Assembly: GCF_003351865.1 (NCBI RefSeq)
Contig: NZ_CP022242.1
Coordinates: forward strand, 62,001 to 126,000
DNA from: Methanofervidicoccus sp. A16
GTDB taxonomy: Archaea; AGJL01; Methanococci; Methanococcales; Methanococcaceae
Length of the DNA: 64,000 nucleotides
Direction: 5' to 3'
In this document: positions 7,694 to 62,270 of the stretch, one piece after another
Numbering within the stretch: the stretch's first letter is position 1
How the letters are laid out: the number at the start of each line of letters is the position of its first letter
Program-made: the position numbers and the translations under genes
The notes under the pieces: generated by a model
Databases searched by the model: none
What the model was told of the DNA's origin: nothing
What the model saw: only the letters and a program-made list of their open reading frames with translations

Positions 7694-8883
7694 AGAGAAT
7701 TGCTGAAAAGTATAGAGATGTTCCTGCACCTCACGGCGAGGATATAGATCTTAGTAAATATAGGATAGAGGAGAGCAGGATAGATATAAACTCGTTAGAA
7801 GATCTTAGTGAGGAAGAGAAATCTAAGTTGGAAAGTATAGGTATTGATACCAGGGAGGAGAGTACTTCAGGTTCCTATCTACAGATAAACAACGATGTTG
7901 TCTATACAAGGGCAAAGTCTAAGATAGAGATCATACCTATCTCAGAGGCTCTGAAAAAGTATAACTTAGATGATTACTTTTGGAATTTAGTAGAAATAAA
8001 GGATAAATATACAGCCAGAGTGGCTCTGGAGAGGACAGGGGGGTTCTTCATAAGAGTTCCTAAGGGGGTTAAGGAGACTCTACCTCTTCAGACTTGTTTA
8101 TTGATCGGTAAGGAGAATGCGTCTCAGAATGTTCATAATATAGTGATAGTTGAGGAGGATGCAGAGTTAAATATCGTCACAGGCTGTGCAACCTCTCCTC
8201 ATGTAAAATCTGGACTACATATTGCAGTTTCTGAATTCTATATAAAGAAAAATGGGAAATTGACATATACCATGATACATGACTGGGGAGAGAATGTCCA
8301 TGTAAGGCCAAGAACTGGAATCTACATTGAAGATAATGGAGTGTTTATAAACAACTACGTTGTAATTACTCCTGTAAAATCTATACAGAGTTATCCAACT
8401 GTATACTGTGCTGGAAAGAACTCGAAGGCTACACTTCAAACTGTGGTCTATGGGAGGAAAGAATCAAGGATAGATCTTGGTTCCAAGGTAATACTCTCTG
8501 GAAATGAGAGTAGGGCAGATATCATATCTAGATCTATAGCAGATGACACCTCCGAAGTTGTAGCCAGAGGAAGGTTAGTTGGAGAGGGAGAAAATATAAA
8601 GGGACATCTCGAGTGTAAGGGGTTGATAATATCAGACAATGCCCGTCTCTATGCAGTTCCTGAGTTAGATGCTAGGAGATCTAATATAGATCTCTCCCAT
8701 GAGGCAGCAGTTGGGAAGATTGCAGAGGAACAGTTGATATACCTCATGTCACGAGGTCTTACTGAAGAGGAGGCGGTATCTCTTATTATCAAAGGGTTCC
8801 TAAGTATGGATCTCTCTGGACTTCCTCCAACACTTGCAAAGGCTGTGGAGAGAATAATGGATATGACACTTGAAGGACTGTAA
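7663..8883 (+). CDS. SufB/SufD-like Fe-S cluster scaffold protein
   Basis: A 406-residue SufBD-family protein. The C-terminal half carries the expected right-handed beta-helix core ([45 protein letters not shown]) and ends with [21 protein letters not shown], a SufB/SufD hallmark. Methanococcales generally carry one such protein with SufC in place of separate SufB and SufD. The ATG at 7663 is preceded by GAGAGGTG; a GTG at 7654 is the alternative. It overlaps the end of sufC by 31 bases, which supports a two-gene operon. Confidence 0.9.
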
Positions 8884-8910
8884 AGTAGAGTGTATTATTA
8901 AGGGATCTCT

Positions 8911-10065
8911 ATGGATATAGACATTGGCGTAGTTATTCATGGGCCAGGGATAGTGGACAGTGGCTACGCAGAGAAGATCCTTGATATACTTAGAGAGTTT
9001 TCAGAGATTTGCAATATAGATATTAGGGTAACTGCTAAAGTTGGAGGAAATATGGGGAGAGTTGCAGTTATCGACAGAAAATTAGAGGACATCATCGATA
9101 TATCAGAGAGGCTCTACCCATCTCAATGTTTAAAAAGATTAAAGGATAAGGATATACTTTTTCTCTTAAACTATGGTAAGTCTAAAGAGACAGGACATAC
9201 CTTTGGGAGAATAGTTGTAGAGAGAGCAGAGTTAGATAAACCTGTAATACAGATAGAGAGACCAGGAGAGGATGATGGAAGTGTCTTAGTATGGAACAGG
9301 GAAAGGTGTAGTGGAAATATTAAGAAAATTTTAGACACTTTAGTATCTTATATATCTGAGAGGTTAGGATTAAAGGTTGAAGAGTGTATTGGAAGTAGGT
9401 TATCAGTATGGGAGGAGGAAGGTAGGGTTTTTAGAAGAATAGATACAGTTGATCCTGGCGAGAGTATCTTGGTAAATGGGATTATAGTGGGAAAGGCCCT
9501 GGGGAGTCCTGTAGTGTTAATATCTGAAAGGGGTAAAATCGTTGAGATTATCAACGGAGAAATAAAGAAGGATGGAGTAGAGAGGTTAGGATCTGTAGAT
9601 TTAAAAAATGCTATTGTAAAAACTGGAGTTTTAAGGAAAGGTTCTTTTAAAAATCTAAAGATTACAGAGAATTGTAGATCCACATTAAATGACTCTCTAG
9701 GAGATGTGTTGATTGTAGATAGGGGGGAAAGGGATGTTCTAAGGGAGTTGAGAAATAGAAATATTTCCACTGTGATTACCATCGGTAGTGATACTACTCT
9801 GATCCTAGGTAATGTTCTTGGGAGATTCAATGTTAAAGTGGTAGGGATCGTAGATGAAGATATATACAGATACAAAGTAGTGGAGGACCTTAAGGTAACT
9901 GAGGGTTCAAGGATCTTTCTATTGAAAAACTGTGAGTGTTATCAAGTTGGAAATCTGTTGATGGAACATTTAAAAGGTAAGAGATTAAGGTATGAGGATA
10001 CTTTAAGATATGTAAGTGATTTATTGGAGAAGCATAAAGTTATTTATGAGATTCTAAACTTTTAA
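8911..10065 (+). CDS. Methanogen conserved protein, possibly DUF2117
   Basis: A 384-residue soluble protein that I cannot assign a reaction. It begins DIGVVIHGPGIVDSGYAEKI, which recalls the methanogen-restricted DUF2117 family; this match is from memory and unverified. The first 150 residues look like an alpha/beta domain with GHTFGRIVVERAEL. The middle contains glycine-bounded strands (VNGIIVGKALGSPVVLI). The C-terminal third is another alpha/beta unit with VITIGSDTTLILGNVL. It follows sufBD by 27 bases and precedes the nucleotide pyrophosphatase by 33 bases, so it may be cotranscribed with them. There is no signal peptide or membrane segment. Confidence 0.6.
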   Translation: MDIDIGVVIHGPGIVDSGYAEKILDILREFSEICNIDIRVTAKVGGNMGRVAVIDRKLEDIIDISERLYPSQCLKRLKDKDILFLLNYGKSKETGHTFGRIVVERAELDKPVIQIERPGEDDGSVLVWNRERCSGNIKKILDTLVSYISERLGLKVEECIGSRLSVWEEEGRVFRRIDTVDPGESILVNGIIVGKALGSPVVLISERGKIVEIINGEIKKDGVERLGSVDLKNAIVKTGVLRKGSFKNLKITENCRSTLNDSLGDVLIVDRGERDVLRELRNRNISTVITIGSDTTLILGNVLGRFNVKVVGIVDEDIYRYKVVEDLKVTEGSRIFLLKNCECYQVGNLLMEHLKGKRLRYEDTLRYVSDLLEKHKVIYEILNF

Positions 10066-19404: not shown

Positions 19405-20199
19405 TTATTTGGATAAACCCCTCATTACCACCGCATGGGAGAGTTCAAAGATGGCACCTCCCAACTCATTACCTATATCTTGAAGTTCTAAACAACTGAT
19501 CTCTATCTTTTTACTCTGTATAGATATAACAACAGGTATAAATTTATAGGCGATCTCTACAATATCTACAGGTCTACAGAGTATCTCCACACCTATTAAC
19601 CCATAGAATCCTAGATCTTTATAGGGCTCCTCCCTTTCCAACTCCTTAGTTATAACCTTATTTACAATGATATTATCCTTAAGGGAGAACAATACCCTCT
19701 TAACAACTTCCTCTTCAGACACCCCATACCCTTCAAATACAGCCTTTACTCTTATAAATCCCTCCTCCTCAAAGTTGTATATATCTTCCTCGTCATATAT
19801 ACCTTTTTTGTACTTTTCTATATCTATTTCCACCTTATCCTGAGTTTGTACATTAAATGCAACGTTGTATTTTTTGTAAAATCTCTTAAAAAAGTCTATT
19901 ATATAAGCCAGTGCCTCTCCAAACTCCTTGGGATCCAATACTAACTTTGGAGGTTCCAGTACATCCACATCTGCAGCGTAATTTATGGAGAACTTTATAT
20001 AGTCTAAAAATGTATCAAATTCCACCTTCAACTCTGCAATAAATGTGTAGAAACCTTCTTTCTCCTCCCACTCCTCTTCAACAGAAAGTACCTCGCATTT
20101 GTACTCCCTCTTTATCTTTTCCAGTAGGTTTTCAAACTCTTTTTTTGCTAACTCCTTATCCCTTCCCTTAACCTCTTGATAGGATATAATTTCAATCAT
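19405..20199 (-). CDS. Uncharacterised acidic protein (operon with 20212-20931)
   Basis: A 264-residue protein that I do not recognise. It is highly charged (many Glu and Lys), with an N-terminal helix, a central block around DVDVLEPPKLVLDPKEFGEALAY and a C-terminal part with several strands ending GAIFELSHAVVMRGLSK. There are no cysteine clusters, P-loop or membrane segment. The ATG at 20199 is preferred because GGTGA lies five bases upstream, overlapping the end of the preceding gene. That tight join implies coupled translation with the upstream gene. Confidence 0.65.
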   Translation of the reverse strand: MIEIISYQEVKGRDKELAKKEFENLLEKIKREYKCEVLSVEEEWEEKEGFYTFIAELKVEFDTFLDYIKFSINYAADVDVLEPPKLVLDPKEFGEALAYIIDFFKRFYKKYNVAFNVQTQDKVEIDIEKYKKGIYDEEDIYNFEEEGFIRVKAVFEGYGVSEEEVVKRVLFSLKDNIIVNKVITKELEREEPYKDLGFYGLIGVEILCRPVDIVEIAYKFIPVVISIQSKKIEISCLELQDIGNELGGAIFELSHAVVMRGLSK

Positions 20200-20211
20200 C
20201 TTCTTCACCAA

Positions 20212-20931
20212 CTATAGGATCTTTTTAAGTCTCTTTATAATACCAGGATAGAGGTCTATAACATTCCCATTTAAAAAGGCGCTCATGGTGTATATTACCC
20301 CTGGAGGTATTATCTCCACAGGTGATCCATTTCTAACAAAGTAGAGATTGTCAAAACTTAACAATCCTCCGAATATCAAACCTGCCAACTTAGGTAGACT
20401 CTGTAGATCTTCAAAAGTTATTATTACTACAGGATCATCTGTCTCCTTTCCCGTATAACCCACTCCAGGTATCTTCTTGGAAGTTTCACTTACACTGACA
20501 CCAACATCAAATCCGTAATTCCTCCCTATATCCTCCACAAAGAGTGCCATCTCATTTACTATATCCTCTCCCCCATAGGTATCAAAGGACACAACTATGG
20601 AGTCTCCATAGGGAGAACCTGCCTTAGCAACAGCATAGGATATACCCTCTTTGGCCTCTTCAGGATTTTCAGATACTCCATTTAGATCGTCAAAACCCAT
20701 AGCATGCTTTTTAAGTAGGTTTACTACAGATATATTTATCTCCTCTATCAACTCCTCAGGTGTAAAGGATGTAATTACTATATCATCTCCTGTTATATTA
20801 GATATAGCAGATTTTACGCCTTTAGGTAGGATCAGCGATAACTCCCTTGATATCTTCTCTGGTATAGTGGGATCTACATCTACATCTGTAGATGAGATAT
20901 CTACACCTATGGAAACAATGTACCAGGTCAT
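20212..20931 (-). CDS. Uncharacterised alpha/beta protein
   Basis: A 239-residue soluble protein of unknown role. The sequence suggests two related alpha/beta halves: IVSIGVDISSTDVDVDPTIP at the start, then DSIVVSFDTYGGEDIVNEMA and DPVVIITFEDLQSLPKLAG later, followed by a hydrophobic glycine-rich stretch (GLIFGGLLSFDNLYFV). It may bind a small molecule, but no diagnostic motif is visible. It is the first gene of a two-gene operon with 19405-20199; the second gene's ribosome-binding site follows its stop codon directly. Confidence 0.65.
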   Translation of the reverse strand: MTWYIVSIGVDISSTDVDVDPTIPEKISRELSLILPKGVKSAISNITGDDIVITSFTPEELIEEINISVVNLLKKHAMGFDDLNGVSENPEEAKEGISYAVAKAGSPYGDSIVVSFDTYGGEDIVNEMALFVEDIGRNYGFDVGVSVSETSKKIPGVGYTGKETDDPVVIITFEDLQSLPKLAGLIFGGLLSFDNLYFVRNGSPVEIIPPGVIYTMSAFLNGNVIDLYPGIIKRLKKIL

Positions 20932-21800: not shown

Positions 21801-21981
21801 TTTTAAATTGTTTATTTTTTTATTCTTATTTTTAAATGATTATTTTTTTATCCGATTTTTGACGGGGCTATGACCACCATATCTTTTTTAGTCAGGTTTA
21901 TCCAAAATGATGAAAATAACAATTTTCCAAAAAGCCTAAAACATTATATACTATTAAGTGGAAATAATATTATGTGAAAGT

Positions 21982-22491
21982 ATGAGATATCTAATAGTGG
22001 TAGATTATGAAAAGGACACTGAAAGAAAGAGGATAGACTATTTAATTGAAAAGTGGTCTCAAAGGGCAAATATAGAGAAAATAAGAAAGATGGCAATACT
22101 AATAGAAACAGAGGATATAAATGAACTTATAAGTGGCATTATCTCCCGTTTAGAAGGAGATCCAGAAGAGAAGGTTAGAGTCTATGAAGTTAAGGAGGTA
22201 AAGAAATCGGTGCCTTTAAAAAAGATTACCTTAAAATACAGAATCCCCAATAAAGAAAGTATAGAGGGTTTTTTAAACTACCTGATGGCAAAATTAGGTG
22301 CAAGTTATGAGTACTCCATAGGGGATGTAAAGAGGTATAGTCTATATACAAAAAAAGGGAAATGCACCATCTCAGTGGGGTTCTACAGGGATATACTAAC
22401 TTTTGAAATCGAAGGATACGGTGAAGGTGTAGATACAATAAAAAATAGAATAGATAGTGATATGAAGTTGTTTATCGAGGGGTCGTTATGA
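21982..22491 (+). CDS. Small two-domain protein of the ESCRT-like cluster (possible Cas2-like fold)
   Basis: A 169-residue protein. Residues 1-70 read as strand (RYLIVVDYEKD), helix (TERKRIDYLIEKW), strand (IRKMAILIET), helix (DINELISGIISRLEGD), strand (KVRVYEV). This ferredoxin-like order, with an Asp after the first strand, resembles Cas2/VapD proteins. No CRISPR array or other cas gene is near, so a CRISPR role is unlikely. Residues 75-169 form a second alpha/beta region with no match known to me. The ATG at 21982 has GTGAAAGT upstream. Its stop codon overlaps the next start (ATGA), so it is first in the five-gene cluster. Confidence 0.7.
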   Translation: MRYLIVVDYEKDTERKRIDYLIEKWSQRANIEKIRKMAILIETEDINELISGIISRLEGDPEEKVRVYEVKEVKKSVPLKKITLKYRIPNKESIEGFLNYLMAKLGASYEYSIGDVKRYSLYTKKGKCTISVGFYRDILTFEIEGYGEGVDTIKNRIDSDMKLFIEGSL

Positions 22492-24203
22492 GTCTCTTTC
22501 CAGAAGGTGACCATAGAAAGTTAGATGAGTTAAGGCAGGTGGTAAGTAGGGTACTGGGAGATGGGTACGACATAATATACGAGCCCTACGAGAAAAGGGT
22601 GGAGTTGTGGAATAGGGTAAAGGAGAACTATGAGAGGTACAAAGATGGGGAGTGTGGGAGGTTCCTAAGGGACATAGACAATGCAGTTAGGAGAGATTTT
22701 GAATGGGCTCTGGCTATATTGGCATTTAGTTTCCATCACAACGGGGAGTCCTTTCCAGGTGTCAATAGGTACAAACCTAAGGAACTTCAACTTGTGGAGT
22801 ATATTTTAAGGTACAACGTATTTGAGATCTGGACGGTAGAGGACATACTAAGGGAGATAAATAGGGCAAACAGAGAGGGTGCAGATGAGATTTTGAATCT
22901 CCTTAAGGAGTACTACAACGGCATAGGGGATAGAATAGAGGAGATCATAAAGGATCATACAGTAAGACTTCCACTGAGGGATTACGCAAAGACAAAGTGG
23001 ATGGAGTACAAGGGTAAGATGGACGAGGCTATATTCCGAGGTATGAGGGAGATAGACTGGTTTAGGGACTTTATAACTGGTGTAGATAGTAAGATCCAAA
23101 AACTTAAGGATGATGTAAACAAACTCCACGACTTTTTAAGAATGGAGAGGGAGAGGTTAGAGGAAGAACTGAAAAAGGAGAAGGAGTTGGAACTATCAAA
23201 AATTGAGGAGATGAGGGAAGAACTGAAGAGGAAGTTTGAAAGGGAGAAGGAAAGGATAAGGATGGAAATCGAAATGGAGAAAAATAGAGAACTCCAGGAG
23301 AAATTAAAAAGGGAGATGGAATCCATAGAGAAGGAGTACAGGGAACTTATTGAGAAGTTAAATAAGAAGGTAGAGACACTGGAATCGGAGAAAAGGGAGT
23401 TAAGTGATATTTTAAGTAAGATAAAAAATGCCAAGAAAGAGGGTACAAGGTTTGTAAAGAGTGAGAGTGCACTATCTTACGAGGAGTGGTTTATTGGGAG
23501 GTTGGAGAAGAGGTTAGATGAGATAAAGAAAAAGGGAATCGTTATAGGGAATAAAACCTTTAAGGTAGAGTCCATTGAGGAGGTGCCCTACTCCGGGATA
23601 ACTACAGGTGTCCCTAAGAACAGGGAGATAAGGGCGATTTTATGTGAGAAAAAGTTCCTTCCTATAGGTAGGAGGGTAAGGATAATGTTAAAAGGGATGT
23701 TCTTAGCAAACAGGAAGAACTTCGAGAGAATGAACTTTGATGTATATCCAATATCCCTAGGTAGGATCATCGAGGTGATGGAGGAGGGGAAGAAGGAGGA
23801 TTTTGATAAGGTTATACTTCTAATAGCCTCACCAACTGGTTTTGAGGATGAGGTGATCAAATTTGTTAACTCTCAGGACTTTAAAAGGAGATATCTATCT
23901 AAAAAAATTGCCCTTATACTCTTAGATGTTGGAACTGGAGAAGTATACTACAACGAGGTGGATGAGTACGCTCGGGTATTTGGGCCCTTGATGAATTTGG
24001 AGTTTGAGAGAGAGAAGATTGAAAGGTTAAAGAGGTACGTTGATGAGGTACTACTTACAAAGGGGTATATCCCATGGGAGGAATCTGTAAAGGTAGTTGG
24101 AGATGAGAGGATAGTAAATAGAGTATTTGAGGAGTACAGGAGATCTGGAAAGGGGGAAACTAACTACATCAAAGACGTTGGTTATGTCCTAATCAAAAAA
24201 TAA
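22488..24203 (+). CDS. Long coiled-coil protein of the ESCRT-like cluster
   Basis: A 571-residue protein with three parts. Residues 1-195 are helical, with a conserved-looking FEWALAILAFSFHHNGESFPG segment. Residues 200-320 form a long, highly charged coiled coil (MERERLEEELKKEKELEL). Residues 330-571 are an alpha/beta domain with strands KVILLIASPTG and KKIALILLDVGTGEVYY. I recognise no enzyme motif. The start overlaps the preceding stop codon as ATGA. It may act as a scaffold or adaptor for the ESCRT-III-like and AAA proteins downstream; that is inference from gene order. Confidence 0.75.
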   Translation: MSLFPEGDHRKLDELRQVVSRVLGDGYDIIYEPYEKRVELWNRVKENYERYKDGECGRFLRDIDNAVRRDFEWALAILAFSFHHNGESFPGVNRYKPKELQLVEYILRYNVFEIWTVEDILREINRANREGADEILNLLKEYYNGIGDRIEEIIKDHTVRLPLRDYAKTKWMEYKGKMDEAIFRGMREIDWFRDFITGVDSKIQKLKDDVNKLHDFLRMERERLEEELKKEKELELSKIEEMREELKRKFEREKERIRMEIEMEKNRELQEKLKREMESIEKEYRELIEKLNKKVETLESEKRELSDILSKIKNAKKEGTRFVKSESALSYEEWFIGRLEKRLDEIKKKGIVIGNKTFKVESIEEVPYSGITTGVPKNREIRAILCEKKFLPIGRRVRIMLKGMFLANRKNFERMNFDVYPISLGRIIEVMEEGKKEDFDKVILLIASPTGFEDEVIKFVNSQDFKRRYLSKKIALILLDVGTGEVYYNEVDEYARVFGPLMNLEFEREKIERLKRYVDEVLLTKGYIPWEESVKVVGDERIVNRVFEEYRRSGKGETNYIKDVGYVLIKK

Positions 24204-24215
24204 CAAGGTGAGATT

Positions 24216-24851
24216 ATGGATTTTTTGAATAAGTTAATAGGTAAATTTAAAGGAAATCCTTTAGATAAACTGTCAATAAGGGATTTAGAGGGAGAAAGGA
24301 TAAGATTAAAGAGTAAGTTAGATAGGATAAAAAAAGAGATAAAATCCTTAGATAGGCAGAAAAAACAGCTGTTCAAAGAGGGAGTGGGTGCCGACACCCT
24401 TACAAAGAAGATGCTCGCACAGGATATAAAAAGTATTGAGATGGAGATGAGGTTGAAGTATAAGAGTTTTCTGACCTATCAAAAGCAGTTCAACTTTGTA
24501 AATAACCTTCTAATTGTTAAGAAGTACGAGAAGGAGTTGAAGAATATAGGGATGTGGAACAAGATCAAGAACATCCAACCTGAAATCTTAGAGGCAAAAC
24601 TAAGTAATATAATATTAGATGGTAAGGAGTTCGATGAGACTGTTGAAAGTTTAAATAGGGTCTTTGAGATGAGAATCGATGAATTCGACGAGGAAGTAGA
24701 TGGAGTAGAGAAGAAACTCTTTGAGGCATGGGGACAGGTTGAAAGTGGAGAGATGGATAGTGAGGATATTGTAAACAACTTAGATCTAGATGTAAATGAG
24801 GATGAGGAGGATGAAGAACTGTTTAAGAGATTAGAGAAGGAAGTTAAATAA
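24216..24851 (+). CDS. ESCRT-III-like helical protein A
   Basis: A 211-residue, almost entirely helical protein. It has an N-terminal amphipathic basic helix (MDFLNKLIGKFKG), a long basic helical hairpin (about residues 25-95), a middle region, then an acidic linker. The extreme C-terminus, D199-EE-L202-FK-RL206-EKEVK, is close to the MIM1 motif ((D/E)xxLxxRLxxL(K/R)) by which ESCRT-III subunits bind Vps4 MIT domains; the last hydrophobic residue is displaced by one. It is a paralogue of the next gene (shared NPLD, NLL/NIL and W-N segments). GGTGAGATT precedes the ATG. Assignment is by pattern, not by alignment score. Confidence 0.7.
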   Translation: MDFLNKLIGKFKGNPLDKLSIRDLEGERIRLKSKLDRIKKEIKSLDRQKKQLFKEGVGADTLTKKMLAQDIKSIEMEMRLKYKSFLTYQKQFNFVNNLLIVKKYEKELKNIGMWNKIKNIQPEILEAKLSNIILDGKEFDETVESLNRVFEMRIDEFDEEVDGVEKKLFEAWGQVESGEMDSEDIVNNLDLDVNEDEEDEELFKRLEKEVK

Positions 24852-24906
24852 TTATTTATTTTAATTTTTTATAAATTATTATTAAAATAACAATTTAGGG
24901 ATAAAT

Positions 24907-25548
24907 ATGTTAAGTAAGTTAAAAAGTCTATTTTTTAAAAGTAAAAATCCGTTAGACATGCCCCTAGATAAAATAAGGGAGTCTAAGATAAAGTTAGATG
25001 TTAAAATTAAAAAGTTGGAGGAGGAGATAGTACAGATAGATAATCAGATTACTATGCTATTTGAAAGGGCGAAAGGGGCGAAGAGTAAAAGTGAAGAGTT
25101 AACAATAGCTACAAAGATAAAAACCCTTAGTCAGAGGAAAAAACAACTGCAGAACTCCCATGCTCTCTTAAATAAACAGGTGCGGTTCATTGACAATATC
25201 CTAATTATAAAGGAGAACGAGGAGATCTTAAAATCTACACCTCTATGGAACACCTTAAGGTCCATGTCACCTCAGGAGTTGGAGAGATATTTAATCGATA
25301 TGAGGATAAACAGTGAAAATATAGTTGAGACGTTGAATAGCGCCTTAGGTATTACAGACAATATATTAGATTCTGCATCGGAGGAGCATGATGAGGATAT
25401 CACGGATATACTAAGTACGATACAGGCTGTTAAAGAGGGGGAGTTAGATGTTGAAGATGCTAAGGGGCTAATATCCAGGGAAGAGAGAGAAAGAGAAGAT
25501 GATGATTTTGAAAGGAAGTTTAAGAAGTTGGATAGGATGATAGATTAA
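24907..25548 (+). CDS. ESCRT-III-like helical protein B
   Basis: A 213-residue helical paralogue of protein A, with the same layout: a basic amphipathic N-terminus (MLSKLKSLFFKSKN), a long charged hairpin (residues 22-100), a shared segment (VRFIDNILIIKENEEILKS against a similar one in A) and an acidic tail. Its C-terminus, D198-DD-F201-ER-KF205-KK-L208, also fits the MIM1 spacing with conservative changes. It lies 55 bases after protein A and 39 bases before the Vps4-like gene. ESCRT-III polymers normally pair a filament former with a capping paralogue, which would explain two copies; that is inference. Confidence 0.7.
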   Translation: MLSKLKSLFFKSKNPLDMPLDKIRESKIKLDVKIKKLEEEIVQIDNQITMLFERAKGAKSKSEELTIATKIKTLSQRKKQLQNSHALLNKQVRFIDNILIIKENEEILKSTPLWNTLRSMSPQELERYLIDMRINSENIVETLNSALGITDNILDSASEEHDEDITDILSTIQAVKEGELDVEDAKGLISREEREREDDDFERKFKKLDRMID

Positions 25549-25587
25549 GGTTTAATCGTTAATACAATAATTTGGAGGGGGTATATA

Positions 25588-26799
25588 TTGGAGGTCGATC
25601 TATCTGGAGTTCTCCTAAGTCAGTTTAAAAAGGCTAAAAGAGAGTACGAGATAGCAAAGAAGGAGAAAAACGAGGTAGTTGCCAAAAAGAAGGCATTGGA
25701 ATGTGCTAAATTACTGAGGGAGATGGCTAAGTATAATCGATACAACGAAAAAAAGTATTTGGAAATGGCTAAAAAGTGGGAGTTAGTGGCAGATAGTATA
25801 GGGGAGATACTCAACCCCTCGAAAGTTATTAGATCTAAACCTATAAAAACATCGTCATCCAGCACATCTGATTCAAAGACCGAGGAGGATAGGGAGAACG
25901 AAATTGACAAGTTTAAAAACTATGTAAAGAACAACCTGATACAGAAATCCACCATAAAGTGGGACGATATAGGGGGGTTGAAGGAGGTAAAACAACTTAT
26001 GATGGAGACTATAGTGATCTCTGCACTTCAGAGACCTGCCTCCATTCAACCCTGGAAGGGTATATTGCTATTCGGTCCTCCTGGTACTGGGAAAACACTA
26101 CTTGCCTCTGCATGTGCTGGGAGTTTAGATGCAACATTCTTTAACGTAAAGGCATCTTCTGTAACAAGTAAGTACTTCGGTGAATCCTCAAAGATCATAA
26201 CTGCACTGTATGAGGTTGCAAGGGAACTTCATCCAAGTATAGTGTTCATAGACGAGATAGATGCTTTGACTACTAAGAGAAGTGAGGGGGTCAGTGAGGC
26301 TTCCAGGAGGATGCTATCTACGTTATTAACAGAGTTGGACGGTTTCCAGGATAAGGGAAGTGATAGGTTGATATTAACCCTTGCGGCGACTAATACACCA
26401 TGGGATTTAGATGAGGCTATCCTCTCCAGGTTCCCAAGGAGGATATACATACCACTACCAGATAAGGAGGCTACAAAGGAGATCATAAAGATCAATACAA
26501 GGGGACTTGAGTTGAATGTTGATTTAGATGGGATCGCAGAGAGGTGCGTAGAGAGATATTATTCAGGTAGGGATCTGAAGAACCTCTGCCAAGGTGCTAT
26601 ATGGAACATGATAAGGGATGTTAATAGGGATCTCTACAAGATGGCTAATCTTTCTTATAAGGAGTTGAGAAAGAGGAAGTTGAAAGTAAGGCCCTTAACT
26701 GAAGAGGACTTCGAGGAGGCTTTTAAGAAGATAAAGAGTCCTTTAACTAAGAGGGATATTGAGAGGTATGAGAAATGGGCGGAGGAGTTTGGGGGGTAA
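25588..26799 (+). CDS. Vps4-like AAA ATPase with N-terminal MIT domain
   Basis: A 403-residue AAA ATPase. Residues 8-75 form a three-helix, alanine/lysine-rich segment with the layout of an MIT domain, followed by a Ser/Thr-rich linker. The AAA core begins IKWDDIGGLKEVK (123-135). Walker A is GPPGTGKT (163-170), Walker B is VFIDEID (219-225), sensor 1 is in AATNTPW, and RFPRR (281-285) supplies the arginine finger. A C-terminal SPLTKRDIERYEKWAEEFGG helix resembles the Vps4 C-terminal helix. It probably disassembles the ESCRT-III-like filaments encoded just upstream. TTG start behind GGAGGGGG. CDC48 and proteasomal ATPases are ruled out by the single AAA domain with an MIT-type N-terminus. Confidence 0.88.
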   Translation: MEVDLSGVLLSQFKKAKREYEIAKKEKNEVVAKKKALECAKLLREMAKYNRYNEKKYLEMAKKWELVADSIGEILNPSKVIRSKPIKTSSSSTSDSKTEEDRENEIDKFKNYVKNNLIQKSTIKWDDIGGLKEVKQLMMETIVISALQRPASIQPWKGILLFGPPGTGKTLLASACAGSLDATFFNVKASSVTSKYFGESSKIITALYEVARELHPSIVFIDEIDALTTKRSEGVSEASRRMLSTLLTELDGFQDKGSDRLILTLAATNTPWDLDEAILSRFPRRIYIPLPDKEATKEIIKINTRGLELNVDLDGIAERCVERYYSGRDLKNLCQGAIWNMIRDVNRDLYKMANLSYKELRKRKLKVRPLTEEDFEEAFKKIKSPLTKRDIERYEKWAEEFGG

Positions 26800-26915: not shown

Positions 26916-28169
26916 ATGAGGAGATTTTCTGTAGTTGTGGTTTTATTTTTGGTAATTATGGGTTTTTTGAATATTGTAGTGGGGGAGGAGATCTATTGGG
27001 TGAAGGAGTTTAAAGGTAAAGCTTATGGAGTTGATATTGCTCCTAATGGGGATATAATAGTTGCTGGAAGAACTAAAAGTTTCGGTGCCGGTGGATACGA
27101 TATCTGGATCCTCCGATTAGATGAAAATGGTAATGTAAAATGGCAAAAAACCTACGGTGGCAGTTATAGGGATTGGGCTGATGCAGTTGCTATTGCTCCT
27201 AATGGGGATATAATAGTTGCTGGATATACTTATAGTTTCGGTGCCGGTGGGGGTGACTTCTGGATCCTCCGATTAGATGAAAATGGTAATGTAAAATGGA
27301 AAAGAACTTATGGGGGGAGTAATTGGGATGGGGCTGATGCAGTTGCTATTGCTCCTAATGGGGATATAATAGTTGCTGGATATACTTATAGTTTCGGTGC
27401 CGGTGAAGGAGATTTTTGGATCCTCCGATTAGATGAAAATGGGAATGTAAAATGGCAAAGAACCTATGGAGGTAGTGACGATGATATAGCTAGAGCAATC
27501 GCCATTGCATCAAATGAAGATATAATAGTTGCTGGATATACTAATAGTTTCGGTACTGGTGGAAAGGATATTTGGATCCTCCGATTAGATAAAAATGGTA
27601 ATGTAAAATGGAGAAAAACCTATGGAGGTAATAGAGGCGATGAGGCTTATGCAATAACTATCGCATCAAATGAAGATATAATAGTTGCTGGATATACTAA
27701 TAGTTTCGGTACTGGTGGAAAGGATATTTGGATCCTCCGATTAGATAAAAATGGTAATGTAAAATGGGAAAAAACCTATGGTGGTAGTGATGATGATGAG
27801 GCTTATGCAGTTGCTATTGCTCCTAATGGGGATGTAGTAGTTGCTGGAAGAACTGGAAGTTTCGGTGCCGGTGGTAGTGACTTCTGGATCCTCCGATTAG
27901 ATGAAAATGGTAATGTAAAATGGGAAAAAACCTACGGTGGCAGTTATTGGGATGAGGCTTATGCAATAACTATTGCACCAAATGGAAATTGTATTGTTGG
28001 TGGAGATAAGTATGTAATTAAGTTTAACATTGATAATATTTCACTTTGCAAGGGTAATGGTTGGGGAGATTCAAACGCTATAGTTAAAAATTCTAGTGCT
28101 GTCGTAAAATACCAAAATATTATCAAAACTGGAATATCAAATGCAATTATTAATACCTCTATTATGTGA
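26916..28169 (+). CDS. Secreted beta-propeller repeat protein; probable ectodomain of the downstream kinase
   Basis: A 417-residue protein with a signal peptide (MRRFSVVVVLFLVIMGFLNI) and about seven repeats of roughly 51 residues between residues 25 and 360. Each repeat contains an IAPNGDIIVAG strand, SFGAGG, WILRLDENGNVKW and TYGG, typical of a beta propeller on the cell surface. The repeats are also very similar in DNA. The frame ends at TGA 28167-28169, overlapped by the GTG of the next gene (GTGA). The last 50 residues depart from the repeat. I suspect it was, or is, the N-terminal part of one receptor kinase. GGTGAGAGG precedes the start. Confidence 0.8.
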   Translation: MRRFSVVVVLFLVIMGFLNIVVGEEIYWVKEFKGKAYGVDIAPNGDIIVAGRTKSFGAGGYDIWILRLDENGNVKWQKTYGGSYRDWADAVAIAPNGDIIVAGYTYSFGAGGGDFWILRLDENGNVKWKRTYGGSNWDGADAVAIAPNGDIIVAGYTYSFGAGEGDFWILRLDENGNVKWQRTYGGSDDDIARAIAIASNEDIIVAGYTNSFGTGGKDIWILRLDKNGNVKWRKTYGGNRGDEAYAITIASNEDIIVAGYTNSFGTGGKDIWILRLDKNGNVKWEKTYGGSDDDEAYAVAIAPNGDVVVAGRTGSFGAGGSDFWILRLDENGNVKWEKTYGGSYWDEAYAITIAPNGNCIVGGDKYVIKFNIDNISLCKGNGWGDSNAIVKNSSAVVKYQNIIKTGISNAIINTSIM

Positions 28170-30877
28170 TAATTAAAAACGTAAATTATGAAGGAAAATA
28201 CCTTTGGATGTACCCTCCAAAAGGCTTCCTGAAAATCTTTTCCACACCATCAGATGCAGAGGCCTATATCAATGATGAATACAAAGGTAAAACTCCTCTA
28301 GTGTTAAAACTCGATCCAGGGAATTATAGTGTAAAAGTCACAAAAGATGGATATGAAGGCTATGAGACAGAAATAGTAGAGATAGAAACTGGAAAAATCG
28401 CTGAAATTAATGTATTTTTAAAGCCCTATGGTATCTTAAAAATCTCTTCCGATCCATCAGATGCAGAGGTTTATATCAATGGTGAATACAGAGGTAATAC
28501 ACCTTTAGAGTTAAAACTCGATCCAGGGAATTATAGTGTAAAAGTCACAAAAGATGGATATGAAAATTATGAAACAAAGATAGAGATAAAAACTGGAAAA
28601 ACTACAGAAGTTAACGCTGTTTTAAAGCCCTATGGTATCTTAAAAATCTACTCTACTCCATCAGGTGCTAAGGTATACATAGATGGATACTACAAGGGAA
28701 CTACTCCACTTACAGTGGAGGTATCACCAGGGACACATACTATCAAGATAAAGAAGGACGGCTACAAAGACTACTCTGATACTGTCTATGTCTCCTCAGG
28801 AGACTCAAAAACCATCAACGCCAAATTAACCTCCAAGAAGGCTACCCTCTACATCAGGTCCGATCCATCAGGTGCTAAGGTATACATAGATGGATACTAC
28901 AAGGGAACTACTCCACTTACAGTGGAGGTATCACCAGGGACACATACTATCAAGATAAAGAAGGACGGCTACAAAGACTACTCTGATACTGTCTATGTCT
29001 CCTCAGGAGACTCAAAAACCATCAACGCCAAATTAACCTCCAAGAAGGCTACCCTCTACATCAGGTCCGATCCATCAGGTGCTAAGGTATACATTAACGG
29101 TGAATACAAAGGTAAAACTCCTTTAGAGTTAAAACTCGATCCAGGATTTTACACTGTCAAGATATCCAAGGATGGATATGAAGATTATATAGCATATATA
29201 ATTTTAAGATCTGGAAAAACTACAAAGATCAATGCAGTCTTAAAACTCTATGGTACCTTAAAAATCTCTTCCAATCCATCAAGAGCATACGTATATATCA
29301 ATGGAAAATATGTAGGTATTACACCCTTAGAATTAAACCTTAGTCCAGGTAGTTATAATGTGGAGATAAAAACCATATTTGGAGAAAAAGTTTATGAAAA
29401 AACTGTAGTTGTAAAGGCTGGAGAAATTACAAAAATTTCAGCAGATTTAAACACGAATACAGGAATATCCTCATCAGATGAAAATAACTGGAATAGTTCG
29501 AATATTATAACAGCTCTTAACACTAAATCTGAAAAAACTGTTAAAAGTAATACTTCTATAACAGCACTGCTAGGGAATATAGGGATAGGAGCTCTCTTAA
29601 TCATAGGATTACTACTCCTCATTATTCTTACAAGAAGCAGAAAACCCTCAGAGACATCAAAACAACCTACAGAAACCTCACCAGATACACCAGAGAAACT
29701 AGACGAAAAACTCCAAGCCTTCCCAAAGGAATTACTCCCCAAATACAAACCCTTAGAATTCTTAGGTGAAGGTGGTTTCGCCAAAGTCTTCAAAGTCAAG
29801 AGAAGAAGTGACGGAAAAATCATAGCCTTAAAGATCCCAAATCTCGACGAGAAAGCCAGAAAGTTCTTCCTCAAGGAGATCAGAGCCTGGAGACTCCTCA
29901 ACCACCCTAACATAGTCAAACTTTATAACGCCTATGAAGAGCCCATACCCCATATCGAGATGGAGTATATCGAAGGAATAACCCTCAACGGCAAAGTTAT
30001 TCGAGACTTAGGTAAATATCCGAAACCAGTAGATGAGAAGAAAACTTTAGATCTCATCAGAGGTATTGCAAAAGGATTAAAACATGCCCACTCTAAACAG
30101 ATATATCACCGTGACTTAAAACCTCAGAATATCCTCATAACTCCCGATCTAACACCTAAGATAACAGACTGGGGATTGGCAAAGATCGGTGCCATCTCAA
30201 CCTCTGCTACAACTACAAAGGGATTAACCCTACTCTACGCCGCCCCAGAACAGTTAGACGAGGAAACCTACGGACATACAGATCATAGAACAGATATATA
30301 TCAACTTGGTTTGATATTCTACGAACTACTAACTGGAAAACTGCCCTACGAGGGAATTACTCCAACAGTTGTCGTGGCTAAGGTGATAAACCCTGCAGTG
30401 AAACCAAAACCACCAAGTTACTTCAATAAAGAGTTGGCGAAGTATGATGGTATCTTCGAGAAACTCTTAGCAAAGAGAAAGGAAGATAGATATCAATCCG
30501 TAGATGAGTTTCTAAAAGCACTGGATTCTATAGAAGAACTAACTAGGGAGAAAGAGAAATTTAAAGATACTCTAACTAAAACCACTCAAAGATTAAAAAT
30601 CTCAACAGATAAGAAAGAAATAGAGAAATTAACGAGGGATCTAATTGAAACTACAGTAAAACTAGCCCTGAACTGCGCCAGGGTAAATGATAAAGTGGGT
30701 CTCTTAGATACCTTGGAGTTGTTAAGGGACTATGTGAAATCTGAGGAGAACAGGAAAGATCTTGAAAAAGTAATATCTCACATTGAGTATCTTATAAAAG
30801 AAGGGATACCTATTGGAGAAGATACTATCGAGAGACTTAAGGTATTGTTAAATAGAATCAAGAGAGAATGGAGTTAA
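28166..30877 (+). CDS. PEGA-domain transmembrane Ser/Thr protein kinase
   Basis: A 903-residue protein. Six PEGA repeats (residues about 18-430; STPSDAEAYIN, KGKTPL, SPGTHTIKI type) are followed by one membrane helix (about 467-490), a Pro/Thr-rich linker and a eukaryote-like kinase domain (about 530-795). The Gly-loop GEGGFAKV, ALK lysine, HRDLKPQN catalytic loop, DWG in place of DFG, and APE motif are all present. A helical C-terminal extension follows. It lacks its own signal peptide, although the PEGA repeats should be extracellular; the preceding overlapping frame has one. The start is GTG in a 4-base overlap, with no ribosome-binding site. A PP2C phosphatase gene follows. Confidence 0.85.
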   Translation: MIIKNVNYEGKYLWMYPPKGFLKIFSTPSDAEAYINDEYKGKTPLVLKLDPGNYSVKVTKDGYEGYETEIVEIETGKIAEINVFLKPYGILKISSDPSDAEVYINGEYRGNTPLELKLDPGNYSVKVTKDGYENYETKIEIKTGKTTEVNAVLKPYGILKIYSTPSGAKVYIDGYYKGTTPLTVEVSPGTHTIKIKKDGYKDYSDTVYVSSGDSKTINAKLTSKKATLYIRSDPSGAKVYIDGYYKGTTPLTVEVSPGTHTIKIKKDGYKDYSDTVYVSSGDSKTINAKLTSKKATLYIRSDPSGAKVYINGEYKGKTPLELKLDPGFYTVKISKDGYEDYIAYIILRSGKTTKINAVLKLYGTLKISSNPSRAYVYINGKYVGITPLELNLSPGSYNVEIKTIFGEKVYEKTVVVKAGEITKISADLNTNTGISSSDENNWNSSNIITALNTKSEKTVKSNTSITALLGNIGIGALLIIGLLLLIILTRSRKPSETSKQPTETSPDTPEKLDEKLQAFPKELLPKYKPLEFLGEGGFAKVFKVKRRSDGKIIALKIPNLDEKARKFFLKEIRAWRLLNHPNIVKLYNAYEEPIPHIEMEYIEGITLNGKVIRDLGKYPKPVDEKKTLDLIRGIAKGLKHAHSKQIYHRDLKPQNILITPDLTPKITDWGLAKIGAISTSATTTKGLTLLYAAPEQLDEETYGHTDHRTDIYQLGLIFYELLTGKLPYEGITPTVVVAKVINPAVKPKPPSYFNKELAKYDGIFEKLLAKRKEDRYQSVDEFLKALDSIEELTREKEKFKDTLTKTTQRLKISTDKKEIEKLTRDLIETTVKLALNCARVNDKVGLLDTLELLRDYVKSEENRKDLEKVISHIEYLIKEGIPIGEDTIERLKVLLNRIKREWS
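28657..29070 (+). repeat. Perfect 207-bp tandem duplication within the PEGA region
   Basis: Two 207-bp units (28657-28863 and 28864-29070) appear identical, and the start of a third is at 29071. Each encodes one 69-residue PEGA repeat. The lack of silent differences shows recent unequal crossing-over or conversion. Confidence 0.88.
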
Positions 30878-30887
30878 GGTGAAAAGA

Positions 30888-31769
30888 ATGTATATATTTT
30901 TGTTATTACTCCTCTTCATAGGATCAGTTGTAATTGGAATGGCTCTATGTCATATAATTGAGAAAAAGAGAAAAGAAATAGAAAAAGTTGAAAGGGAGAA
31001 AACTAGGGACATTGAAACACCAAATCGCGACTACATTATCTTCGAGGAGGATAAAGTTTATGGCATATCTCATAAGGGCAACAGGACACATAACGAGGAC
31101 TACATCCTAGTTAAGAAGATCAAGGATATCTATCTCTTAGCAGTTGCAGATGGTATTGGAGGACATAACGCAGGAGAGGTTGCATCTAAAATGGCAGTGG
31201 AAACTCTAGAGAACTTTATAACAGAGAGATACAGAGAGGATCTATCCATTGAAGAGATTAAAGAAATATTGGAAGAAGCCTACAATTTAGCCCATCGTAA
31301 GATAAGGGAAAATGCTATCGGAGATAAGGAAGGAATGGGAACAACACTGACAACTGCAATAGTAAAGGGAGACAGATGTATTGTAGCGAACTGTGGTGAT
31401 AGTAGGGCGTATTTAATTAGAGATGGAAGTATAATTCACAGAACTAAGGATCACTCCTTTGTCCAGGCTTTAATAGATAGTGGCCAGATTACAGAGGAGA
31501 AAGCCATGGAACATCCAATGAAAAATATCATCACCTCGGCATTAGGGTTAGATGAGCTTAAGATAGATATCTACCTCTGGGATCTAAAAAAAGGAGATAC
31601 ACTTCTTCTAAGTTCCGATGGGCTTCATGATTACGTGGAGAAAAAGGAAATTTTAAAGGTTGTAAGTAGTTATAAGGATCCAAAAGAGATCGTTAAAAGA
31701 CTGTTAGATATTGCATTGGAGAAGACAAAGGACAATGTAAGTATCGTAGTGTACAAAAAGACTTCTTAA
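30888..31769 (+). CDS. Membrane-anchored PP2C-type protein phosphatase
   Basis: A 293-residue PPM/PP2C phosphatase with an N-terminal membrane anchor (residues 2-22, YIFLLLLLFIGSVVIGMAL) and a basic helical linker. The metal-binding motifs are all present: GNRTHNEDY, VADGIGGHNAGE, GTTLTTA, CGDSRAY, LLSSDGLHDYV and KDNVSIVV. It should dephosphorylate Ser/Thr on the cytoplasmic face. The ATG at 30888 follows GGTGAAAAGA, so the gene starts 11 bases after the kinase stop codon and is cotranscribed with it, like bacterial PknB/PrpC-type pairs. Its substrate is likely the kinase or the kinase targets. Confidence 0.92.
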   Translation: MYIFLLLLLFIGSVVIGMALCHIIEKKRKEIEKVEREKTRDIETPNRDYIIFEEDKVYGISHKGNRTHNEDYILVKKIKDIYLLAVADGIGGHNAGEVASKMAVETLENFITERYREDLSIEEIKEILEEAYNLAHRKIRENAIGDKEGMGTTLTTAIVKGDRCIVANCGDSRAYLIRDGSIIHRTKDHSFVQALIDSGQITEEKAMEHPMKNIITSALGLDELKIDIYLWDLKKGDTLLLSSDGLHDYVEKKEILKVVSSYKDPKEIVKRLLDIALEKTKDNVSIVVYKKTS

Positions 31770-61898: not shown

Positions 61899-62270
61899 TT
61901 ATTCGTTTAATTTTAATATGGCCTCTGCTATATCTCCATTACACTCCTTAAGTGCCCTGAGGGCTTCATCCCTTGAGACGTTGCACTGGCTCATAACCAG
62001 TTGAATATCTTCTTCAGTTATCTCTAATTTTACTTCTTCATTCTCTATATTTTCCTCTTTTTTTATCTTTTTAGCCTTTCCAGAGATGGTGTATGTCTTG
62101 TTTCCAAACATATCCATTACTTGAACCTTAGGTTTTTCAAAGACTAAGATCTTATCCTCCAACTCTATAGTTACCTTCAAAGCCCTTAGTTCTTCTGTCT
62201 CCATTCCCATCTCTTTCATCATCTTCTCCATCTGTTTCAACATTCTTGGACTCATTCTTCCAGGAAACAT
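61899..62270 (-). CDS. nac: Nascent polypeptide-associated complex protein
   Basis: A 123-residue homodimeric archaeal NAC that binds nascent chains at the ribosome. A methionine-rich N-terminal helix (RMLKQMEKMMKEMGM) precedes the NAC beta-barrel (ILVFEKPKVQVMDMFGNKTYTISG), and a UBA domain ends the protein (ITEEDIQLVMSQCNVSRDEALRAL). The ATG at 62270 is preferred because GGTGAAAACT precedes it; a GTG at 62279 lies in that site. Confidence 0.93.
   Translation of the reverse strand: MFPGRMSPRMLKQMEKMMKEMGMETEELRALKVTIELEDKILVFEKPKVQVMDMFGNKTYTISGKAKKIKKEENIENEEVKLEITEEDIQLVMSQCNVSRDEALRALKECNGDIAEAILKLNE

Follow-up and report, generated by a model that had tools for sequence, protein, structure and literature searches.

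An ESCRT-type gene cluster with adjoining kinase and phosphatase genes in an FtsZ-encoding methanogen

The DNA considered here (the window) is a stretch of 64,000 nucleotides from Methanofervidicoccus sp. A16, positions 62,001 to 126,000 of contig NZ_CP022242.1. Positions below are counted from its first letter, and each protein is named after the start of its gene. The subject is a same-strand gene cluster whose products resemble the membrane-remodelling ESCRT systems: an ATPase of the Vps4 type, two helical proteins and their apparent partners. Its features are as follows.

21944..21951, plus strand: TATA-box-like TTATATAC, read by eye 5' of the first gene, a candidate archaeal promoter.
21982..22491, plus strand: small alpha/beta protein of 169 amino acids, conserved family A3, probable arCOG08177 by place, size and strand pattern.
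22488..24203, plus strand: arCOG09748-like protein of 571 amino acids with a helical domain, coiled coil, alpha/beta domain and C-terminal winged helix (AlphaFold2, Foldseek, family A4).
24216..24851, plus strand: ESCRT-III paralog 1, 211 amino acids (AlphaFold2 hairpin, Foldseek, paralogy with the 24907 protein).
24907..25548, plus strand: ESCRT-III paralog 2, 213 amino acids (hhalign against Asgard/TACK ESCRT-III).
25588..26799, plus strand: Vps4-type AAA ATPase, 403 amino acids, TTG start, with a divergent MIT-like N-terminus and a Vps4_C helix (Pfam, tree, MIT comparison).
26916..28169, plus strand: delta-60-repeat beta-propeller protein with a signal-like N-terminus (library matches).
28166..30877, plus strand: PEGA/Ser/Thr kinase protein with six PEGA domains and a conserved C-terminal helical domain (library matches, comparison of relatives).
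30879..31769, plus strand: PP2C-type Ser/Thr phosphatase of the Stp1 family (NF033484, 231.2 bits, cut-off 230).

A sigma-70 promoter scan is uninformative for archaea. A preliminary description of this DNA recognised the first five genes, joined by a 4-base overlap and then by gaps of 12, 55 and 39 bases, and all five open reading frames (ORFs) are found as it gave them. These are real genes and not chance ORFs, because they have orthologs in other Methanococcales and in further archaeal classes. Identity to the orthologs within Methanococcales is 79-88% for the ATPase, 47-83% for the coiled-coil protein and 70-87% for the first helical protein. Orthologs of all five reach the Thermococci and Archaeoglobi, and metagenome-assembled genomes of Methanomicrobiales also carry orthologs. 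The relatives of the ATPase begin at the same residue as its TTG start. The extent of five genes was too small, however. After a gap of 116 bases the same strand continues with the propeller, PEGA/kinase and PP2C genes, and the kinase and phosphatase must be counted as part of the cluster because the neighbourhood of the relatives keeps both. The ESCRT genes, the kinase and the phosphatase are co-located across several archaeal classes.

The ATPase has a single AAA domain (Pfam AAA, 1.5e-39) and a Vps4_C match above its cut-off (9.1e-9). A direct sequence search of the PDB ranks Cdc48-type chains first, so the class of the ATPase was checked with a tree of 70 proteins, which include Cdc48 D1, Cdc48 D2 and PAN of the same genome. 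Support of 97/86 separates these three from the Vps4-type proteins, whether euryarchaeal, TACK or Asgard. The window ATPase falls within a euryarchaeal Vps4 clade (100/100), and TACK CdvC and Asgard-type Vps4 fall opposite it (94/89). The preliminary description was therefore right to call this protein Vps4-like. It had also placed an MIT fold at residues 8-75. Here the N-terminal region aligns with Asgard and TACK MIT domains at 68% (hhalign, P 4.8e-5), with reversed alignments at 12.7% or less and 30 column shuffles at 4.5% or less. This is moderate support for the fold. In three Thermococcus loci (L069, L070 and L077) the Vps4-like ATPase gene is followed downstream by another, diverged one.

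The families of the two helical proteins align with each other over their full length (hhalign 99.6%), which makes them paralogs. The 24907 family matches 62 Asgard/TACK ESCRT-III proteins at 94% (hhalign, P 1.4e-7). The match begins with the N-terminal amphipathic segment, takes in the hairpin and ends at residue 173. Its reversed decoys reach at most 4.4% and its 30 column shuffles at most 0.3%. In the AlphaFold2 model of the 24216 protein, helices 21-56 and 61-103 form a hairpin, mostly with pLDDT above 90, and short helices follow it. When this model was compared with 350,542 PDB chains by Foldseek, eight of the nine best matches were CdvB2 or CdvB. Vipp1, PspA, CHMP3, CHMP2A-CHMP3, Snf7 and Asgard ESCRT-IIIB stand lower in the list. 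The assignment of both paralogs to ESCRT-III made from the letters alone thus holds, through the hairpin of one and the sequence match of the other. Lack of a hairpin, which the preliminary description had named as refuting its reading, is not seen for 24216, and 24907 is a paralog of that protein along its full length. The 24216 protein ends in a tail (24810-24848) made up of an acidic stretch and then DEELFKRLEKE. This tail is kept in 11 of 12 Methanococcales and is a candidate docking site; tails of this type are absent from the 24216 relatives in Thermococci, Archaeoglobi and Methanomicrobiales.

The preliminary description left two components without a type, and both now fit families published with this kind of system. 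The AlphaFold2 model of the 22488 protein (pLDDT 82) has a helical domain at 9-188, a coiled coil at 190-318 and an alpha/beta domain at 351-488. Its C-terminus, 507-570, is a helix-strand-helix-helix-strand-strand unit. Foldseek matches winged helices over about 60 residues with probability about 1 and weak E-values, among them VPS25 of the VPS25-VPS20 complex (3htu) and ESCRT-II (3cuq, root-mean-square deviation 1.9 over 58 columns). As modelled, the protein starts with a helical domain and continues through a coiled coil and a globular domain to a terminal winged helix, the architecture published for arCOG09748. The 21982 protein reads by eye from its alignment as beta-alpha-beta-beta-alpha-beta, then a half whose strands follow each other as in a helix-grip fold. 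Its family holds the same place in the loci and has members in Thermococci and Archaeoglobi; no match was found in Pfam, the PDB or the other libraries. As published, arCOG08177 has a Cas2-like half and a helix-grip/TBP-like half (PMC10936438). From its size, place and strand pattern the 21982 protein is probably arCOG08177.

Relatives of the coiled-coil gene also occur by themselves. Elsewhere in the same genome an ORF of 98 amino acids at G000:C1:345319-345618, minus strand (about 8826-9122 of locus L169), is 42-47% identical to residues 36-135 of the 22488 protein. No other cluster gene lies around it, and the similarity suggests a decayed or stand-alone copy of the N-terminal domain. In a Methanococcales genome without an ESCRT locus (G031) there is an orphan 22488 relative at 7456-8559 of L170, apparently without the C-terminal winged helix. 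A match in G053 (L030) was dropped as a stand-alone coiled-coil protein without adjoining ESCRT genes.

Several observations weigh against ESCRT membership. The 24216 family by itself reaches only 8% against known ESCRT-III (hhalign), so its assignment has to rest on its paralog and its structure. No Foldseek match of its hairpin in the PDB falls below E 0.001. Direct sequence searches of the PDB return weak CdvB matches for 24216 (E 0.05 and 0.35) and nothing useful for 24907 or for the MIT region. Pfam and NCBIfam give no model above cut-off for either helical protein, ESCRT-III models included. Pfam MIT is silent in all 17 ATPase relatives but is listed for all six Asgard, TACK and related controls (one slightly below cut-off). 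The MIT domain is thus probable but divergent. Nor is there a validated MIM. A MIM1-like motif in the 24216 tail is not claimed, because the pattern was chosen after the tail had been seen and matches 0 of the 62 known ESCRT-III proteins.

One can imagine from these points that the AAA protein is Cdc48- or katanin-like, possibly an unfoldase, and that the coiled-coil proteins are unrelated partners, perhaps its adaptors. The Cdc48-type PDB matches would agree with that, as would the lack of Pfam Snf7 and MIT matches in the window proteins. However, Pfam Snf7 at its cut-off misses the Sulfolobus control as well, so nothing against ESCRT-III follows from its silence. The tree, the Vps4_C match, the ESCRT-III profile match with failing decoys and the 24216 hairpin all speak the other way, and we consider the unfoldase scenario highly improbable. 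We argue that the locus is almost certainly a complete 'Main'-type archaeal ESCRT system in the sense of Makarova et al. 2024.

The 28166 protein has six PEGA domains, a membrane segment near residue 464 and a Ser/Thr kinase from about residue 525. Its gene has a GTG start, lacks a signal peptide and overlaps the propeller gene by 4 bases. The propeller and the PEGA/kinase-type parts form one ORF in L070 (16114-19284) and in L076 (4837-8610), and L049 is split similarly. The junction in the window (28120-28200) could reflect two coupled genes, a fusion with a frameshift, or recoding. When the sensor part was compared with the kinases of nine relatives, the N-terminal part had no detectable similarity in five, two of which are truncated or split ORFs. 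In the relatives compared the kinase domain is 67-71% identical and the C-terminal domain 67-82%. These comparisons point to exchange of the sensor part among relatives. The kinases of L047, L048, L051, L055, L056, L057 and L062 keep the kinase and C-terminal domains and have a swapped N-terminal part, which can be a propeller, PEGA repeats, several membrane segments or other ectodomains.

The distribution of the cluster is patchy. Complete genomes of the same genus (G009 and G011) lack it, which means that it is dispensable in the order, and it is missing from most of the order as well. In the tree the ATPase of G027, which belongs to another family, groups with that of G014 and apart from that of G016, a genus-mate of G014. 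This suggests transfer within the order. In G014 (L053 and L054) and in G027 (L056) the cluster is broken up, and additional PEGA/kinase-type genes lie between its parts or around them. Upstream of the cluster in the window, on the minus strand at 19405-20931, are two adjacent proteins of 268 and 239 amino acids without a Pfam match.

ESCRT-III and Vps4 divide Sulfolobales cells (PMC5840170, PMC11796394), and the nearest structures to the 24216 hairpin are CdvB and CdvB2, so a second division machine beside FtsZ, like CdvABC of Sulfolobus, has to be considered. However, the genome has two FtsZ and one SepF, an FtsZ division set of the kind the preliminary description expected for Methanococcales. 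Division is for that reason an unlikely role. A division machine also does not sit well with a cluster that is missing from most of the order and carries extra kinase and phosphatase genes, and Pfam and NCBIfam scans find no CdvA match among the cluster proteins. We hold this role to be decidedly unlikely. A device for envelope stress, repair or virus response fares somewhat differently. Here the kinase would sense damage or attack, and ESCRT-III would patch or shed membrane. With its patchy distribution, the transfer hinted at by the tree and a conserved kinase on which sensor ectodomains are exchangeable, the cluster looks like an accessory, environment-facing system, and the sensor exchange together with the suggested transfer keeps this explanation alive. 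Set against it, the neighbouring genes are housekeeping ones (POR, polyamine synthase, FeoB and inositol-phosphate synthase), the defence library gives only generic kinase and AAA matches, and viral contigs hold no relatives. On these last two results a defence system and a viral origin, respectively, were rejected. It is a possible explanation, but a doubtful one.

We argue that a Main-type ESCRT locus under phosphorylation control, with vesicle formation or membrane-protein sorting as its output, is probably the best overall explanation. The most likely single role would be phosphorylation-controlled budding or cargo sorting, a role of the kind proposed by Makarova et al. (PMC10936438), although taken by itself we regard the vesicle or sorting role as evenly balanced. 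In such a scheme the outer part of the kinase, with the propeller and PEGA domains, would sense a signal or cargo outside the cell. How far cargo or ESCRT adaptors are phosphorylated would be decided by the kinase and phosphatase. Acting like ESCRT-II or CdvA, the winged-helix coiled-coil protein would join the small protein in nucleating ESCRT-III on the membrane. The two paralogs would form polymers of hairpins, their N-terminal amphipathic segments inserted in the membrane. Vps4 would then remodel or recycle the polymer, and membrane would be pinched off or sorted. A bolder version is a signal-gated ESCRT, in which a single conserved kinase, fitted with exchangeable extracellular sensors, would switch the assembly of ESCRT-III through phosphorylation. 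The methanogen would shed, sort or repair membrane on surface cues, and Vps4 would contact ESCRT-III through the divergent MIT domain and the lineage-specific C-terminal tail. We offer this version tentatively and think it rather unlikely.

A heat-loving methanogen that divides with FtsZ and has a full ESCRT gene set would show ESCRT activity freed from division. This would bear on a published proposal in which sorting of membrane proteins was the task of the ancestral archaeal ESCRT and use in division came later. We found no experimental study of euryarchaeal ESCRT systems of this type in the literature. The adjoining kinase and phosphatase make phosphorylation control directly testable.

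PspA and Vipp1 share the hairpin superfamily with the 24216 protein and both are in its Foldseek list. They rank below CdvB, however, and membership in the PspA family was rejected because a Pfam PspA search of the genome gives no match at the locus. PspA systems are not known to have a Vps4 partner. In CdvABC of Sulfolobales and other TACK archaea, CdvB-like hairpin proteins and a CdvC-like ATPase share one operon, as they do here. The window locus differs in having no CdvA, a separate Vps4 clade and kinase and phosphatase partners, in a genome with FtsZ and SepF. The Asgard ESCRT (Vps4, paired ESCRT-III genes, ESCRT-I/II and ubiquitin) also has an adjoining ESCRT-III pair with Vps4 and a winged-helix adaptor protein. 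Its Vps4 clade is distant from that of the window, the window MIT is far more divergent, and no ubiquitin or ESCRT-I genes are seen within the cluster.

An earlier survey reported euryarchaeal CdvB/CdvC relatives without a recognisable common system (PMC8970359). Makarova et al. 2024 then described the 'Main' clade of archaeal ESCRT in Thermococcales, Methanococcales, Methanomicrobiales, Halobacteriales and others, with a gene set of Vps4, ESCRT-III, arCOG09748 and arCOG08177 (PMC10936438). In many of these genomes there is also a phosphatase, together with a membrane Ser/Thr kinase that carries immunoglobulin-like repeats and, at its C-terminus, a PCI-like domain (PMC10936438). The window locus is a further example of this kind, from an order named there. 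The system inferred in the preliminary description had therefore already been reported for Methanococcales. The likeness covers Vps4, ESCRT-III, the winged-helix coiled-coil protein, the small protein (probable arCOG08177), a membrane Ser/Thr kinase with a repeat ectodomain and a PP2C-type phosphatase. Unlike the published set, the window has two explicit ESCRT-III paralogs, and a separate propeller gene precedes a kinase gene that has no signal peptide of its own. Our analysis adds independent, decoy-controlled tests of the single components, the propeller, kinase and phosphatase genes that the preliminary description had left out, the exchange of sensors, the 28166/28169 split and the decayed second copy suggested for the coiled-coil gene.

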